From Deltaproteobacteria bacterium PRO3 (GTDB taxonomy: Bacteria; UBA10199; DSSB01): DNA of 39,767 bases. The notes beneath the pieces are model-generated. The model made no database searches, was not told where the DNA came from, and saw nothing but the letters and a program-made list of their open reading frames with translations. Each line of letters begins with the position of its first letter. Position 1 is the first letter of the stretch. Location of the stretch: assembly GCA_030263375.1 (NCBI GenBank), contig SZOV01000058.1, positions 1-39,767 of the forward strand, given 5' to 3'. The translations under genes were made by a program, and so were the position numbers. Positions 1-36,105 of this stretch are shown here, piece after piece.

Positions 1-1943
<1,943 letters not shown>

Positions 1944-15069: not shown

Positions 15070-16755
15070 ATGCGTAAATTTCTTATCGGCATCGCCTGTC
15101 TAACGGCCTGCCTGACCTACCCAGGCGCCAGTCAAGCCGCTTCATTGACGGTCACCTGGGACGGCAGCAACGGGCCAGGCTCGATGGCGTTAGATGTCGA
15201 CGACACGGGCGGGGCCGACGACGATTACAATTTCACATTCAACGGAGCCGACCATACTTCCACCACCGACTTCATCGTCTCCGACGGAAACGGCGTCGCC
15301 ATTGGCGACTCAGACTTGACCCCCTTGGACTTTTTAGGCAACGGACTCGCCGTTTTCACGGGCCCCTTCGCCAACCTTCCCAACGTGGATCAATTGGTGT
15401 TGGAAACGGACACCCCCTTCACCCCGATCACCATGTCGGTCAACAATACCGCCCTGACCCTCGAGCAAATCGTCTACGTCAACAACACGAAGGACTACGC
15501 CATCATCGAGCTGCGGGCCGTCAACAACGGCGCTGCGGCCAGCCCGGTGTTCATCGCCGTGGCCAACGACTGGGACATCGACGGCAACAGCACCGACGGC
15601 AGCAGCGACTTCGACGCCGCCCGAAACATGGTGATTCAATTCGACGAGCCGGGACCCGACAACTATTCCATCGGAATGGCCTCGTTGAACAATCCGGTGG
15701 ACCAATTCCTCCTCGGCACCTGCTGCGGGATGACGGACAGCATCGACAACGACCCCGAGCACGCCGATCCCTACGTCCTCCAACGGCATTTCCTCAATAA
15801 CACCAAACCCACCGAGGAATGCGACGACGGCGGCAACGCACCCGCCGACGGCGGCGCCGACACCTGTTCGCCCAAATGCCGCACCGCAGTCGCCGGACAG
15901 GCCTGCGGTAACGGCACCCCGGAAGGCGACGAAGAGTGCGACGACGGTAACCTCGCCAACGGCGACGGCTGCGACAATCGCTGCCTCGACGAAAACAGCC
16001 TCTGCGGCAACGGGGTCCTGGACCCAGGCGAGGAATGCGACGATGCCGGCCGCGCCAGCGGCGACGGTTGCTCGCTGGAATGCACCTCCGAATTCTCCTA
16101 CAACGACTCCGATTTTTGCGGCGACGGCATCGTCAACAACGGCGCCACGGGATTCCAAGCGGACCCCTCCAACGACAGCGACCTCGAATCCTCCCTCTCG
16201 GTGAAATTCGCGAGCGTCGCCCCCGGCCAGGGCGCCGCGGCGGCCTTCTGCATCCTCGGGGCCACCGGCACCGACATGGCGAACAGCGAGGCCAACCTCA
16301 AGGCCAAGGCCGACGACTGCCTCGCCTTCTACCAACAGAACATCGCCGTCTGCGGCAACGGCCTGCAGAACGCCGGCGAGGAGTGCGACGACGGAAACAC
16401 CGCCGACAACGACGGCTGCGACAGCAATTGCACCGTCACCGGCTGCGGCAACGACATCGTCAATCCCGGCGAGGCCTGCGACGACGGCAACATCCAGGAC
16501 GGCGACGGCTGCTCCGCGACCTGCCAAGTAGAGGGCACCTGCGGCGACGGCATCGTCGACGCCGGCGAGGAATGTGACGACGGCAACACCAACGACAACG
16601 ACCTCTGCGACAACGCCTGCGCGGTCAACCCGACCCCGCTGTTCCAGGGCTCCGGTTGCGGCCTGGCGACCGGCGGTGCGGCGACGTCCGCGGCCCTATC
16701 CCTCTGGGTCCTGTTGGGCCTGGGCGGCCTGGCCCTGCGCCGACGCCTCCAGTAA
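15070..16755 (+). CDS. Secreted Cys-rich protein with DUF4215 repeats and MYXO-CTERM-like tail
   Basis: This 561-residue protein has a signal peptide (MRKFLIGIACLTACLTYPGASQA), an unrecognised region to about residue 240 rich in Asp, Asn and Thr, and then repeats of the Myxococcus Cys-rich type. At least five copies of CGNG...EECDDGN...DGCDxxC are visible between about 265 and 520. One interval (about 340-425) breaks the series with non-repeat sequence. The tail from Cys530 is GSGC, a hydrophobic stretch and then ALRRRLQ, which resembles the tripartite MYXO-CTERM sorting signal (Cys, membrane helix, Arg cluster) cut by myxosortase. It is probably surface-displayed. GGAGGA precedes the start and a strong terminator follows. 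Confidence 0.85.
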   Translation: MRKFLIGIACLTACLTYPGASQAASLTVTWDGSNGPGSMALDVDDTGGADDDYNFTFNGADHTSTTDFIVSDGNGVAIGDSDLTPLDFLGNGLAVFTGPFANLPNVDQLVLETDTPFTPITMSVNNTALTLEQIVYVNNTKDYAIIELRAVNNGAAASPVFIAVANDWDIDGNSTDGSSDFDAARNMVIQFDEPGPDNYSIGMASLNNPVDQFLLGTCCGMTDSIDNDPEHADPYVLQRHFLNNTKPTEECDDGGNAPADGGADTCSPKCRTAVAGQACGNGTPEGDEECDDGNLANGDGCDNRCLDENSLCGNGVLDPGEECDDAGRASGDGCSLECTSEFSYNDSDFCGDGIVNNGATGFQADPSNDSDLESSLSVKFASVAPGQGAAAAFCILGATGTDMANSEANLKAKADDCLAFYQQNIAVCGNGLQNAGEECDDGNTADNDGCDSNCTVTGCGNDIVNPGEACDDGNIQDGDGCSATCQVEGTCGDGIVDAGEECDDGNTNDNDLCDNACAVNPTPLFQGSGCGLATGGAATSAALSLWVLLGLGGLALRRRLQ

Positions 16756-16785: not shown

Positions 16786-16818
16786 AAAAAACGGCCCCGC
16801 AGCGGGGCCGTTTTTTTT
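16786..16818 (+). terminator. Strong rho-independent terminator, potentially bidirectional
   Basis: A run of six A residues, then CGGCCCCG, a three-base loop, the complementary CGGGGCCG and eight T residues form a near-perfect hairpin ending just downstream of the DUF4215 gene. The A and T tracts also pair, so it can serve both directions. Confidence 0.92.
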
Positions 16819-25303: not shown

Positions 25304-25558
25304 CTAGGCGTGGGTCGCCGTGAAGGGGATCAGCGCCAGGGTGCGGGCCCGCTTCACGGCGGTGGTCAAGGCGCGCTGGTGCAGCGCGCAGTTACCGGTG
25401 ATGCGCCGAGGAATGATCTTTCCGCGCTCGGTGATGAAGAGACCGAGCAGCTTGGGGCTTTTGTAGTCCAGCTTGAAATCCTTGTCGGCGCAGAAACGGC
25501 ACACCTTACGGCGGCTGAAGCTGCGTTTGCGGGTCTTGGGTCGTTGCGCATAGGCCAT
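25304..25558 (-). CDS. rpsR: 30S ribosomal protein S18, zinc-binding type
   Basis: This 84-residue protein binds the platform of the 30S subunit together with S6. Typical blocks: [34 protein letters not shown] and [14 protein letters not shown]. The Cys-x2-Cys pair plus the later NCALH supplies four possible zinc ligands, so this is the Cys-containing form. It lies 18 bases after rpsF and 15 before the DUF2232 gene. Confidence 0.97.
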
Positions 25559-25576
25559 AAATGCTTCTCCCTTGGG

Positions 25577-26059
25577 CTATTCTTCAACGCCTTCAATGGC
25601 GGGTTCGTCGGCGGGGCTCGCATCGCGCCCATGGCCGTGGCCGCCCTCGTGATGCCGGCGATCGCCGTAGCGATCGCGGGGCGGACGGTCGTAGACAGGC
25701 TCTTCGTGAAAGACCTCTTCCGGCGGGAGCGGGGCCTCGCCGGCGCGGGCCAGACGTTCGGCCTGGTCGACCTTTTCGTCAACCTTGACGGTGAGGAATT
25801 TGAGCACCCGGTCGTCGTACTTCAGGATGCGCTCGAGTTCGGCGACCGAGGCCCCCTGATCGAGGTATTGCAGGTACAGGTATTGGGCCTGGGTGAACTT
25901 CTCGACCCGATAGGCCAGGCGGCGCTTGCCCCAGTCGACGTGGTGCAGGATGTGACCGCCGCCTTTGGTAATGATATCCTTGAGTTTTTCTTGGATGGTC
26001 TTGACTTGGTCGCCGGGCAGGTCCGGCTTGAGGACGTAGATCGTCTCGTACTCGCGCAT
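25577..26059 (-). CDS. rpsF: 30S ribosomal protein S6 with extended acidic/His-rich tail
   Basis: This 160-residue protein has the S6 ferredoxin-like fold in residues 1-95: MREYETIYVLKPDL, GGHILHHVDWGKRRLAY, QYLYLQYLDQ and ELERILKYDDRVLKFLTVKV. The tail of about 65 residues is longer than usual and rich in Pro, Glu, Arg, Asp, Gly and His (RYGDRRHHEGGHGHGRD). AAGGAGG lies upstream of the ATG. It is the first of the rpsF-rpsR-DUF2232-rplI group and follows pth by 60 bases. S6-S18 often repress their own message; no clear leader motif was recognised here. Confidence 0.96.
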   Translation of the reverse strand: MREYETIYVLKPDLPGDQVKTIQEKLKDIITKGGGHILHHVDWGKRRLAYRVEKFTQAQYLYLQYLDQGASVAELERILKYDDRVLKFLTVKVDEKVDQAERLARAGEAPLPPEEVFHEEPVYDRPPRDRYGDRRHHEGGHGHGRDASPADEPAIEGVEE

Positions 26060-26119
26060 GTTTCCTCCTTATGGTCCTTAGGTCAGGGCCCCCTTAAAGG
26101 GAGCAAGCAGGATGCATAT

Positions 26120-26698
26120 TCAATTAGGGCGCTTGGTATTAACCATTTGCATCAGGGGGTCAAGCCCCATTTTGACGAAGATCTTCACCGCTTCCGAGGC
26201 CTTAGGCAAGAGCTCTTCGTCCAAAATCTTGCGCTCTTCCTTCGAGAAGGCGGCCAGGACGTGATCGGCCCCTCCCCTTTGGGCCGGGGGCCGGCCGATG
26301 CCCACCCGCAGGCGGCAGAAGTCTTTATGACCCAGGGCCTCGATGATCGAGGCCACCCCCTTTTGGCCGGCGGCGCTGGCGGAGAATTGGGCCTTCATGC
26401 GGCCGAAAGGGAGATCGAGCTCGTCATGGACGACCAGCAGGTCGCCGCCCTCGAGCTTGAGGAAGTCGACCCAGGGGCCGACGCAGCGGCCGCTCAAATT
26501 CATGAAGGTCTCGGGCTTGACCAACAGGATCTTCTCGTCGCCCTCGCGGTGCTCGGCGTAGTGGCCGTGGAACTTCTGCCGGCGAAAGTCCGCACCCCAC
26601 TCTTCGGCCAGGCGGTCGACGATAAAAAACCCGACGTTGTGTCGGGTTTTTTCGTATTCTTTGCCGGGATTGCCGAGGCCGACGATGAGCTTGGGCAT
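26120..26698 (-). CDS. pth: Peptidyl-tRNA hydrolase
   Basis: This 192-residue enzyme releases peptides from stalled peptidyl-tRNA and recycles the tRNA. Asn10 (VGLGNPG), catalytic His20 (KTRHNVGF), Asn67 (TFMNLSG) and Asp92 (VHDELDLP) are all present. The loop usually written GGHNG reads AGQKG here (residues 110-114), so the Asn known to contact substrate in E. coli Pth is Lys. Basic residues at that place occur in some relatives, so activity is not excluded. It starts six bases after rplY, the common rplY-pth arrangement. The His20 codons lie within a terminator-like hairpin. Confidence 0.96.
   Translation of the reverse strand: MPKLIVGLGNPGKEYEKTRHNVGFFIVDRLAEEWGADFRRQKFHGHYAEHREGDEKILLVKPETFMNLSGRCVGPWVDFLKLEGGDLLVVHDELDLPFGRMKAQFSASAAGQKGVASIIEALGHKDFCRLRVGIGRPPAQRGGADHVLAAFSKEERKILDEELLPKASEAVKIFVKMGLDPLMQMVNTKRPN
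26624..26652 (-). other. Perfect terminator-like hairpin inside pth
   Basis: Six A residues plus CCCGAC (26624-26635), a 5-base loop, then GTCGGG plus six T residues (26641-26652) form a perfect 12-bp stem with a T-tract, readable in both directions. It encodes residues around KTRHNVGFF of Pth. Whether it terminates transcription when pth is not translated is not known. Confidence 0.8.
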
Positions 26699-26704
26699 GG
26701 CAGG

Positions 26705-27379
26705 CTACTTTTTCTTCTCTTCCTTTTTCTCGACCTTCTTCTCGGCCTCGCCCTCGGCGGGCTTCTTCTCGGTCAGGACCTCGGGCTGGACGACCTCGGT
26801 CTCGGGGGTCGTGGCGACCTCTTCCACCGGCGCCACGACGGCCGCGACGGTCTCGTCGGAGCCCGGCACCAGCTCGACGCCCTCGGGGAGCTTGAGATCG
26901 TGCACGTGGATGTTATCGCCGATGTTGAGGCCGGAAACGTCCGCCTCGAGGGCGTTGGGAATGGCGGTCGGGAGGCAGTTGACCTTGATGGTGCGGGTGA
27001 TGTGCTCGAGGATGCCGCCTTCCTTGACGCCGGGGGCCTTGCCGACCAGCTGGATCGGGACCTCGACCGAGACCTTCTTGGTCAAGTCGATCTTCAAAAA
27101 GTCGACATGCAGGAATTTGCGGTCGATGACGTGGGCCTGGTAGTCCTTCACCATGACCGGTATCCGCTCCTTGCCCTCGATCTGCAGGTCGACGATGACG
27201 TTGATGCCGGAGGCCGAGCTCACCGCCTTGGTGAAGTCGCGGGTGTTGACCGAGAGGGGCATGGCCTCTTGGCCCTGACCGTAGAGGACGGCCGGGATCG
27301 CGCCCTTGGCGCGCAATTGGCGGGCGACGCCCTTGCCGGTCTTTTGCCGAAGGTTGGCGGTTAACTGTTGGCGTTCCAT
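26705..27379 (-). CDS. rplY: 50S ribosomal protein L25/general stress protein Ctc
   Basis: This 224-residue protein of the long (Ctc/TL5) form binds 5S rRNA. The N-terminal L25 domain (MERQQLTANLRQKTGKG, AIPAVLYGQG) is followed by the C-terminal beta domain (VSVEVPIQLVGKAPGVKEGG, GDNIHVHDLKLPEGV). The tail is rich in Glu, Lys, Val and Pro (EVVQPEVLTEKKPAEGEAEK and on). ATG 27379 is chosen because AAGGAG lies six bases upstream and the conserved start follows. It lies between prs and pth, the usual order. Confidence 0.95.
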   Translation of the reverse strand: MERQQLTANLRQKTGKGVARQLRAKGAIPAVLYGQGQEAMPLSVNTRDFTKAVSSASGINVIVDLQIEGKERIPVMVKDYQAHVIDRKFLHVDFLKIDLTKKVSVEVPIQLVGKAPGVKEGGILEHITRTIKVNCLPTAIPNALEADVSGLNIGDNIHVHDLKLPEGVELVPGSDETVAAVVAPVEEVATTPETEVVQPEVLTEKKPAEGEAEKKVEKKEEKKK

Positions 27380-27397
27380 GACAGACTCCTTAAACAA

Positions 27398-28354
27398 CTA
27401 AACGAACAATGAAGAAACCGAATCGCTGTGGGTGATGCGGCTGATCGCCTCGCCCAGCAGCTTGGCCATCGACAGCACCTTGATCTTGGGGTGCTTGAGC
27501 ACGGCCTCGGGCTGCGAAATTGTATTCGTCACCACCAGGGCCGACAAGACGGATTTTTCGATGCGCTCGACGGCGGGGCCCGAGAGCACGCCGTGGGTGG
27601 CGCAGGCGAAGACGCGCTTGGCGCCGTTGTCCGCCAGGGCCTGGGCGGCTTGGGTCAAGGTGCCCGCGGTGTCGACCATGTCGTCGACGATGATCGCGGT
27701 CTTGCCCTCGACCTCGCCGATGACGTTCATGACCTCGGAGACGTTGGGGCGCGTGCGCCGCTTGTCGATCATCGCGAGACCGACCTCGAGGCGCTTCGCG
27801 TAGGCGCGGGCGCGCTCGGCGCCGCCGGCGTCGGGCGAGACGATGACCAGGTCGTTCATCAGGTTTTCCTTGATGTAATCGAGCAGGATCGGCGTCGCGT
27901 AGAGATGATCGAAGGGAATGTTGAAGAAGCCCTGGATCTGCCCGGCGTGCAGGTCGACGGAGAGCACGCGGTGGGCGCCCGCCGAGGTAATGAGGTCGGC
28001 GACCAGCTTGGAGGTGATCGGGGTGCGGGGCTGGACCTTGCGATCTTGCCGGGCGTAGCCGTAGTAGGGCATGACCGCCGTGATGCGCTCGGCCGAGGCG
28101 CGCTTGAGCGCGTCGATCATGATGAGCAGCTCCATCAGGTGCTCGTTGGCCGGCCGCGAGGTCGACTGGATGATGAAGACGTCCTTGCCCCGGACGTTCT
28201 CGTCGATCTCGACCCAGACCTCGCCGTCGGAGAAGCGCTTGACCTGGGCAGCGCCGAGCGGCACTCCGAGGGAGTCGCAGATCTCCCGGGCCAAGCCCAA
28301 GTTGGCATTGCCGGAGAAAATTTTGATGTCTTCCAAGGGTCGCATCATTTTCAT
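27398..28354 (-). CDS. prs: Ribose-phosphate pyrophosphokinase (PRPP synthetase)
   Basis: This 318-residue enzyme makes PRPP from ribose 5-phosphate and ATP for purine, pyrimidine, His and Trp synthesis. It has the class I pattern: [53 protein letters not shown] and the PRPP loop [13 protein letters not shown]. Three ATG codons (28354, 28348, 28345) lie close together and the ribosome site is weak, so the exact start is open by two or three residues. It begins 25 bases after the tRNA-Gln gene, so tRNA processing probably generates its mRNA 5' end. Confidence 0.97.
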
Positions 28355-28601: not shown

Positions 28602-28952
28602 TCAGTCGTCCGGGGCGGCATAATCCTCGGGCTTGATCTGGTCGGGGGTCTTGGACTCGATTTTGGGGGCCTGAGGGGCCGGGGCGGCGGGCGGCAGGGC
28701 GCCCTTCTCGCGCTCGTAGGCGTCGAGGACGGCGGTCTCGATCTTGGCCCGAAATTCGTTATTTAAGGGATGGGCGACGTCCTTGAAGGTGCCGTCCTTG
28801 CGCTTCTTGGAGGGCATGGCGACGAAGAGGCCGCTGTTGCCGTGGATGACCTTGAGGTCGCGGACCACGAAGCAGTCGTCGAAGGTGACCGTCGCGTAGG
28901 CCTTCAGCTTCTCTTCGTTAACGGGAAATACTCGGACTTCGGTGACTTCCAT
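28602..28952 (-). CDS. spoVG: SpoVG-family RNA/DNA-binding regulator
   Basis: This 116-residue protein belongs to the SpoVG family. Typical blocks: MEVTEVRVFPV, LKAYATVTFDDCFVVRDLKVIHGNSGLFVAMPS in outline, and the strongly conserved FKDVAHPLNNEFRAKIETAVL. The last 25 residues form a Pro/Ala/Lys-rich tail that is not part of the family core. Relatives act as nucleic-acid-binding regulators; the targets here are unknown. A sigma-70-like promoter lies upstream at 29000-29028. It sits between ispE and tRNA-Gln. Confidence 0.95.
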   Translation of the reverse strand: MEVTEVRVFPVNEEKLKAYATVTFDDCFVVRDLKVIHGNSGLFVAMPSKKRKDGTFKDVAHPLNNEFRAKIETAVLDAYEREKGALPPAAPAPQAPKIESKTPDQIKPEDYAAPDD

Positions 28953-36066: not shown

Positions 36067-36105
36067 AAAAAAAAGATGCCGGGGCGCGTTATAAGCGCCC
36101 CGGCA
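36067..36105 (-). terminator. Rho-independent terminator after the propeller-cytochrome gene
   Basis: TGCCGGGGCGC (36077-36087 on the plus strand) pairs perfectly with GCGCCCCGGCA (36095-36105) around a 7-base loop. On the minus strand it is followed by CT and then a run of eight T residues (36067-36074). It ends transcription of the gene at 36130-38667. Confidence 0.92.

Follow-up and report, generated by a model that had tools for sequence, protein, structure and literature searches.

The gene pth, encoding peptidyl-tRNA hydrolase, carries a terminator-like hairpin within the codons of its catalytic histidine motif; in relatives these codons are under sense-strand selection, and the hairpin is concentrated where the gene of ribosomal protein bL25 lies beside pth. 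In the window (the whole stretch of DNA analysed, 39,767 nucleotides of Deltaproteobacteria bacterium PRO3), codons 16–25 of pth probably serve as a sense-strand intrinsic terminator of the prs–bL25 unit, trimming transcription into pth. Judging by sequence comparison, the codon-kept hairpin most likely limits, in several lineages, run-on transcription from the bL25 gene just upstream.

Hairpin and gene neighbourhood in the window

The genes and hairpin elements concerned are the following.

26120..26698, minus strand: pth, peptidyl-tRNA hydrolase (PF01195, E 7.5e-64)
26705..27397, minus strand: gene of bL25 (rplY/ctc; PF01386 and PF14693); the listed start is TTG, with an ATG further in
27398..28354, minus strand: prs, ribose-phosphate pyrophosphokinase (PF13793 and PF14572)
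28602..28952, minus strand: SpoVG-family gene (PF04026), same strand, upstream of prs
25577..26059, minus strand: rpsF (bS6; PF01250), downstream of pth
25304..25558, minus strand: rpsR (bS18; PF01084), downstream of rpsF
26624..26652, minus strand: embedded terminator-like hairpin, pth codons 16–25 (sequence and fold; kept in the related genomes G001, G002 and G004)
26647..26652, minus strand: 5' A-tract A6, pairing with the U-tract (sequence)
26641..26646, minus strand: 5' stem arm CCCGAC, codons Thr18–His20 (sequence; covariation in relatives)
26636..26640, minus strand: loop ACAAC, His20–Asn21, with wobbles little constrained in methanotroph relatives (sequence, codon constraint)
26630..26635, minus strand: 3' stem arm GTCGGG, codons Val22–Gly23 (sequence; codon constraint, covariation)
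26624..26629, minus strand: U-tract of Phe24–Phe25, TTT TTT (sequence)

The SpoVG-family gene, prs, the bL25 gene, pth, rpsF, rpsR and a DUF2232 gene are co-directional on the minus strand, and 6 nt separate the end of the bL25 stop codon from the pth start codon. On the plus strand, a 684-codon open frame at 25310–27364 runs opposite the bL25 gene, pth, rpsF and the greater part of rpsR; it is probably a GC-rich shadow.

The hairpin A6-CCCGAC-ACAAC-GTCGGG-T6 spans pth nucleotides 47–75, and its description in the initial annotation, as an intrinsic-terminator shape in the codons of the Pth histidine motif, is exact. Positions 26624–26652 read AAAAAACCCGAC-GTTGT-GTCGGGTTTTTT as written in the window. 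The codons K17–F25 are AAA ACC CGA CAC AAC GTC GGG TTT TTT; the first letters of the A6 belong to the GAA codon before them. The stem consists of 12 perfect pairs around a loop of 5 nt, and five of the six inner pairs are G-C, which corresponds to the GC-rich stem and short loop of intrinsic terminators; the U-tract UUUUUUAU, likewise typical of them, adjoins the stem directly. For a sense RNA of 56 nt, the folding energy is -21.9 kcal/mol, compared with -9.6 (sd 2.6) in 200 shuffles (z -4.64). From the bL25 stop codon to the GC stem there are 58 nt, and the stem begins 52 nt into pth. No Rfam family was found above the gathering score at the hairpin site in the five loci searched, and over the window only sub-threshold matches were obtained, the best being to the last third of AgrB.

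The longest perfect inverted repeats of the window (loops of 3–10 nt) are this hairpin and 16786–16816. The latter, the longest of all, is a perfect hairpin of the same build, A6-GC stem-T6, in an intergenic position after the ORF 15070–16755, and the window's genome therefore probably uses such signals. A canonical-looking terminator, an 11-bp GC-rich stem followed by TCTTTTTTTT, is present on the minus strand at 36077–36105. In 440 kb of the own genome, strict settings gave 12 terminator-like sites within genes versus 15 intergenic ones; the simple gene caller used there took the mirrored plus-strand frame as a gene, so that the sense match in pth was labelled antisense.

One alternative is that the hairpin arose by chance from the conserved motif of the protein together with codon usage. 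The protein itself fixes two of the six inner pairs. With the codon usage of the own genome (101,883 codons from 20 stretches), in which TTT makes up 24% of Phe codons, the probability per gene that KTRHNVGFF closes the six inner pairs (G·U pairs included), whichever Lys codon is used and with TTT TTT, is 0.0017; for the exact A6..T6 form, given the same protein, P is 2e-5. A genome has thousands of genes, so a lone site such as that of the window could be due to chance, and it is conservation in relatives that speaks against this. The codon choice is thus uncommon but not decisive from the own genome alone; the relatives decide.

Codon selection in relatives

Eight genomes of the window's order were available, seven with a pth match. 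The hairpin was found in G000, G001 and G002, which belong to one genus, and in G004 of another genus, and is absent from G003, G005 and G007. Eight of the nine hairpin codons are kept both in G001 (85% protein identity) and in G004 (72%), while elsewhere in pth 81 of 148 and 84 of 124 codons of shared residues, respectively, are kept. The ninth changes in both genomes from CGA to CGG, giving a G·U pair on the sense strand and an A·C mismatch on the antisense strand. For the window's phylum, 38 of 42 matching genomes were used, and the hairpin was found in 4 of 38 pth loci, all four from the window's own family, which contributes only four genomes. At loci of the phylum with bL25 ending at most 60 nt from pth, runs of at least eight pairs were found in 4 of 31 (0.14 expected from synonymous sampling), and no hairpin was detected in 27 of 31.

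A scan with a degenerate hairpin pattern, in one genome per species (84,980 species), found 41 stretches, 34 in pth and seven outside, 20 of the 41 belonging to Methylococcales-type bacteria. The seven 25-nt matches outside pth are all intergenic according to a simple ORF call and lie roughly 20–50 nt 3' of a gene. In five of them, all from Pasteurellaceae (Haemophilus and Bibersteinia; L075, L082, L084, L085 and L087), the pattern stands just 3' of rplI (identified by Pfam), in convergent gaps.

Clade samples were drawn by Pfam protein family and not by hairpin, most clades having been chosen after matches in the pattern scan; the methanotroph family, Thiotrichales, Bacillota, Silvanigrellales and the Oscillospiraceae-labelled group entered in this way. 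The centre genomes L098, L099, L100, L101 and L107 and the hand-picked L197 were already known to bear the hairpin. One genome (G341) occurs in two samples. A recognisable TRHN-type motif was required of every locus, which excluded nine of 69 gammaproteobacterial loci as well as L361, L363, L379 and L380.

The methanotroph set comprises 90 loci of 187 matching genomes (the 30 best by score and 60 hand-picked) from the family of the Methylobacter centre genome, which we take to be Methylomonadaceae in GTDB. These pth genes are diverged, a median pair differing at 52% of codons of shared residues. At least eight consecutive pairs in the same register were found in 77 of the 90 loci (76 of 89 after removal of known hairpin bearers) and at least ten in 75 of 90, where synonymous sampling gives 0.36. 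With bL25 at most 60 nt away, runs of at least eight pairs are present in 76 of 80 genes versus 0.9 expected, far above the synonymous control that the initial annotation had named as one half of its test. Its remark that the conserved motif favours such pairing is correct insofar as TRHNxGF lends itself to it; the motif itself, with 0.9 expected against 76 seen, is not sufficient, and it is codon choice, not the protein alone, that makes the hairpin.

Codon constraint follows the same elements. Among 82 conserved methanotroph columns, the paired Arg, Gly, Ala and Thr rank 1, 3, 4 and 7, and the two Leu columns of the U-tract rank 5 and 6, rank 2 being a Ser column. The loop columns Asn and His rank 51 and 64, and the Lys and the two Phe columns show no special constraint (ranks 37, 24 and 34). 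The U-tract Leu codons are TTA or TTG in 71 of 72 and 76 of 77 cases, and the 8-nt U-tract contains on average 6.9 T in 77 methanotroph loci and 7.0 in the four loci of the window's family. Along pth, sense terminator-like matches lie at 50–100 nt in 80 of 90 methanotroph loci, with one at 0–50 nt and none later up to 500 nt. The constraint on the U-tract beyond the stem bears on the alternative of a non-terminating RNA element, i.e., 3'-end protection of a processed bL25 mRNA, an RNase site or an effect on pth translation. Sense-strand selection on the stem would look alike under it and under termination, while constraint reaching beyond the stem argues for the latter, and such an element is regarded as improbable.

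Nine methanotroph loci (L108–L115 and L117) lack the bL25–pth neighbourhood, any upstream ORF found being another gene, and their Pth has GFWW in place of GFLF. In these relatives, R, G, A and T rank 26, 37, 50 and 80 of 143 columns (nine sequences only). In another methanotroph, L125, three tRNA genes (Rfam; 1140–1403, minus strand) lie about 90 nt downstream of pth (1495–2061), the gene for recycling peptidyl-tRNA, on the same strand.

In the order Thiotrichales, the hairpin was found in 27 of 29 pth loci (26 of 28 without known bearers), and with bL25 at most 60 nt away, runs of at least eight pairs are present in 26 of 27 versus 0.12 expected by synonymous sampling. Among 115 columns of all 29 loci, G and R take ranks 1–2, A 6 and T 11; with ranks of 27 and 33 for N and H of the loop, stem and loop contrast less than in the methanotrophs. 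The U-tracts of Thiotrichales are interrupted: TTTTGGTTT. The broad gammaproteobacterial sample has the hairpin in 13 of 60 loci, with runs of at least eight pairs in 12 of 46 loci of other gammaproteobacteria with bL25 at most 60 nt away, versus 0.20 expected. Recurrence in distant bacteria supports the initial annotation in part.

The remaining samples contain few cases, namely, 3 of 65 loci in the Pseudomonadota-wide sample (one being a centre genome), 2 of 30 in the Bacillota order, 1 of 14 in Silvanigrellales in this register and 1 of 16 in the Oscillospiraceae-labelled family, the last two being the centre genomes only. These two single finds favour chance, and the isolated Oscillospiraceae-labelled match is treated as such and rejected as a selected hairpin. 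For methanotrophs and Thiotrichales, chance is already contradicted, while it is possible for isolated matches; given the excess over synonymous expectation in four samples, it can hardly be the explanation of the hairpin. Synonymous sampling and codon permutation spoke against GC content or the protein motif as the source of the hairpin, and this reading was rejected. A link to GC-rich genomes, as first supposed, was not supported: all 90 methanotroph loci have 37–54% G+C, and among 342 loci, in which the choice of clades weighs, the share with the hairpin is 10 of 68 where G+C is 0.60 or more, 28 of 96 for 0.50–0.59 and 90 of 178 below 0.50.

Adjacency to bL25, strand and other hairpins

Of 342 loci overall, 243 have bL25 ending at most 60 nt from pth, and a terminator-like hairpin lies in the first 130 nt of pth in 139 of them, where synonymous codon permutation within genes gives 9.5. 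At 130–260 nt there are two matches and at 260–520 nt none. An intergenic terminator is present in 0 of 243, which is partly trivial because there is little room at such gaps. With a gap of 61–600 nt (43 loci), 14 matches are intergenic, four lie in the first 130 nt of pth and four later. With no bL25 upstream, a match in the first 130 nt is present in 4 of 56 loci, three of them being a 6-bp version in methanotrophs L110, L112 and L115. No hairpin was detected in 104 of the 243 pth genes with tightly adjacent bL25, which may use other means.

Fisher tests of the hairpin against bL25 context ignore ancestry. On Pth trees, in two runs of 246 and 341 rows, each omitting one locus as too short, the link between hairpin and bL25 adjacency was not significant. 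In the 341-row tree, the embedded state has 31 changes, compared with 103–119 for shuffled labels, and of 12 supported independent pairs only about two are informative, almost always pointing the way expected.

In 119 hairpin loci, the GC stem starts 37–70 nt into pth and at a median of 70 nt (51–102) past the bL25 stop, from which a transcript end some 80–95 nt after this stop is estimated. According to the part of a Term-seq survey used here (PMC12207403), the median distance between the preceding coding sequence and the ends at intrinsic terminators is 38–57 nt for most bacteria and 66–91 nt for Streptomyces and Synechocystis. By these medians, the pth hairpin is near, and somewhat beyond, the place expected for a bL25 terminator, where the next gene has already begun.

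The position within the gene would also suit a translation-sensitive attenuator of pth, the idea of the initial annotation, in which a close ribosome blocks the hairpin and weak translation lets transcription stop, since at 37–70 nt the leading ribosome could matter. No competing upstream segment was found for it: in the 6-mer test used, a 6-mer complementary to the 5' arm is present in 3 of 104 loci versus 3.3 expected, and an upstream antiterminator partner was rejected on this result. Without bL25 upstream, runs of at least eight pairs occur in 2 of 56 loci, both centre genomes chosen for bearing the hairpin, which would be odd for control of pth alone. Such an attenuator is considered unlikely, and the bL25 context suggests trimming of the operon rather than control by pth translation.

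Covariation and strand evidence are clean only within clades. In the 81 methanotroph loci with bL25 (73 distinct sequences), 649 of 657 inner cells pair, and nine double-sided changes were found, while shuffles of the 3' letters gave a mean of 1.1 and a maximum of 5, and slid registers 0–1. In three methanotroph loci, ACC/GGG is replaced by AAC/GGT, changing Thr to Asn with the pair retained. When all 247 loci are pooled, those lacking the hairpin among them, 61 double-sided changes exceed the shuffle maximum of 42, but slid registers reach 91, and the ratio of G·U to A·C is 178:75.

Among methanotrophs with bL25, sense G·U pairs number 36 and sense A·C one. Selection on both strands, expected of a bidirectional terminator, was thus not observed, and the initial annotation's proposal of a block to antisense transcription is not supported, given this asymmetry and the two relatives, G001 and G004, in which the antisense stem is broken. 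Speaking for a bidirectional terminator or an antisense block are the perfect symmetry of the window copy and the many antisense terminator-like matches in the two clades with the strongest signal (59 of 80 loci and 17 of 27); in the first 130 nt of bL25-adjacent loci outside these clades, 36 matches are sense versus five antisense. An antisense or bidirectional role was rejected on the G·U strand asymmetry and is rated as very improbable.

Other hairpins occupy the same bL25–pth border in further clades. A second form, found in eight Pseudomonadota loci around the codons for EGLRFDAAPR, lies about 40 nt further on, at +90 to +96, as a hairpin of 11–13 bp with a T-rich tail; it is absent from nine other loci sharing the GFRF motif. 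In three Silvanigrellales, a third pairing near the first site, CTCACG/CGTGGG, was read by eye. Different hairpins at one border argue for a convergent need. That the alternative hairpins also precede T-rich tails would speak against a non-terminating element, but the scan required such tails, and they are no independent evidence.

Proposed role and comparison with known systems

On the preferred reading, RNA polymerase leaving prs–bL25 would meet the hairpin and part of transcription would end there; a leaky terminator would pass a fraction of polymerases, and pth would be made from the read-through. bL25 is an abundant ribosomal protein and Pth a scarce but essential enzyme, and in this way the two would share a promoter and not a transcript level. 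We infer cotranscription of prs, bL25 and pth, a partial efficiency of termination and a benefit of limited pth dosage. Since only a few nucleotides separate bL25 and pth, the usual intergenic place is missing, and the terminator would lie in the codons of the following gene instead. Counting against a terminator in the window, rpsF and rpsR downstream of pth would need a promoter of their own.

A broader proposal is made tentatively, with slightly less than even confidence: tight operons of a ribosomal protein and an enzyme may repeatedly acquire a terminator in the codons of the downstream enzyme, at pth with several origins, in at least two places and through three pairings, and selection on the RNA may steer amino acids beside the catalytic histidine (Asn for Thr with a compensating Gly codon; Leu for Trp with a longer U-tract).

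A terminator-like match within a gene is easily dismissed as chance; this one is selected and probably functional, so that the same DNA holds two conserved signals, the hairpin and the codons for the active site of an essential enzyme. This would suggest a way in which pth is held at a low level behind a ribosomal protein gene. Synonymous recoding offers a codon-level handle for experiments, and the case is a caution that regulatory signals can be lost when the codons of bacterial genes are changed.

In titles and starts of abstracts among the matches listed, no terminator inside pth or built into a catalytic motif was found, supplements, bioRxiv and most subscription journals lying outside this scope; the word pth is absent from the main texts of a 3'-end paper (PMC8297930) and a methanotroph paper (PMC12403871), and both pth and rplY from that of PMC7815308.

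The hairpin resembles Rho-independent terminators in its GC-rich stem, short loop and U-tract, and the same 25-nt pattern stands in seven intergenic places; unlike the usual ones, it lies 52 nt into an essential gene and is kept through synonymous choice. In rpsU–dnaG and rplL–rpoB of E. coli, as at pth, a ribosomal protein gene is followed by a leaky terminator and a scarcer product, their terminators being intergenic. RNA 3' ends inside ORFs of E. coli, some predicted to be intrinsic, are described in the part of PMC7815308 considered; they share the position inside a coding sequence, and that part makes no link between them and a conserved hairpin encoded by codons. Operon-internal terminators controlling gene stoichiometry are established, as reported in the parts consulted, for ABC importers of Ruminiclostridium (PMC9045158) and for operons of ribosomal proteins and RNA polymerase in Methanococcus (PMC10450193). 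Like these, the pth site lies between co-directional neighbours (prs–bL25–pth–rpsF–rpsR on one strand) and would be a partial terminator between an abundant upstream and a scarcer downstream product, in Methanococcus also after ribosomal protein genes. Their terminators, as there described, are intergenic, whereas the stem at pth is inside the downstream coding sequence and shares codons with the catalytic motif.
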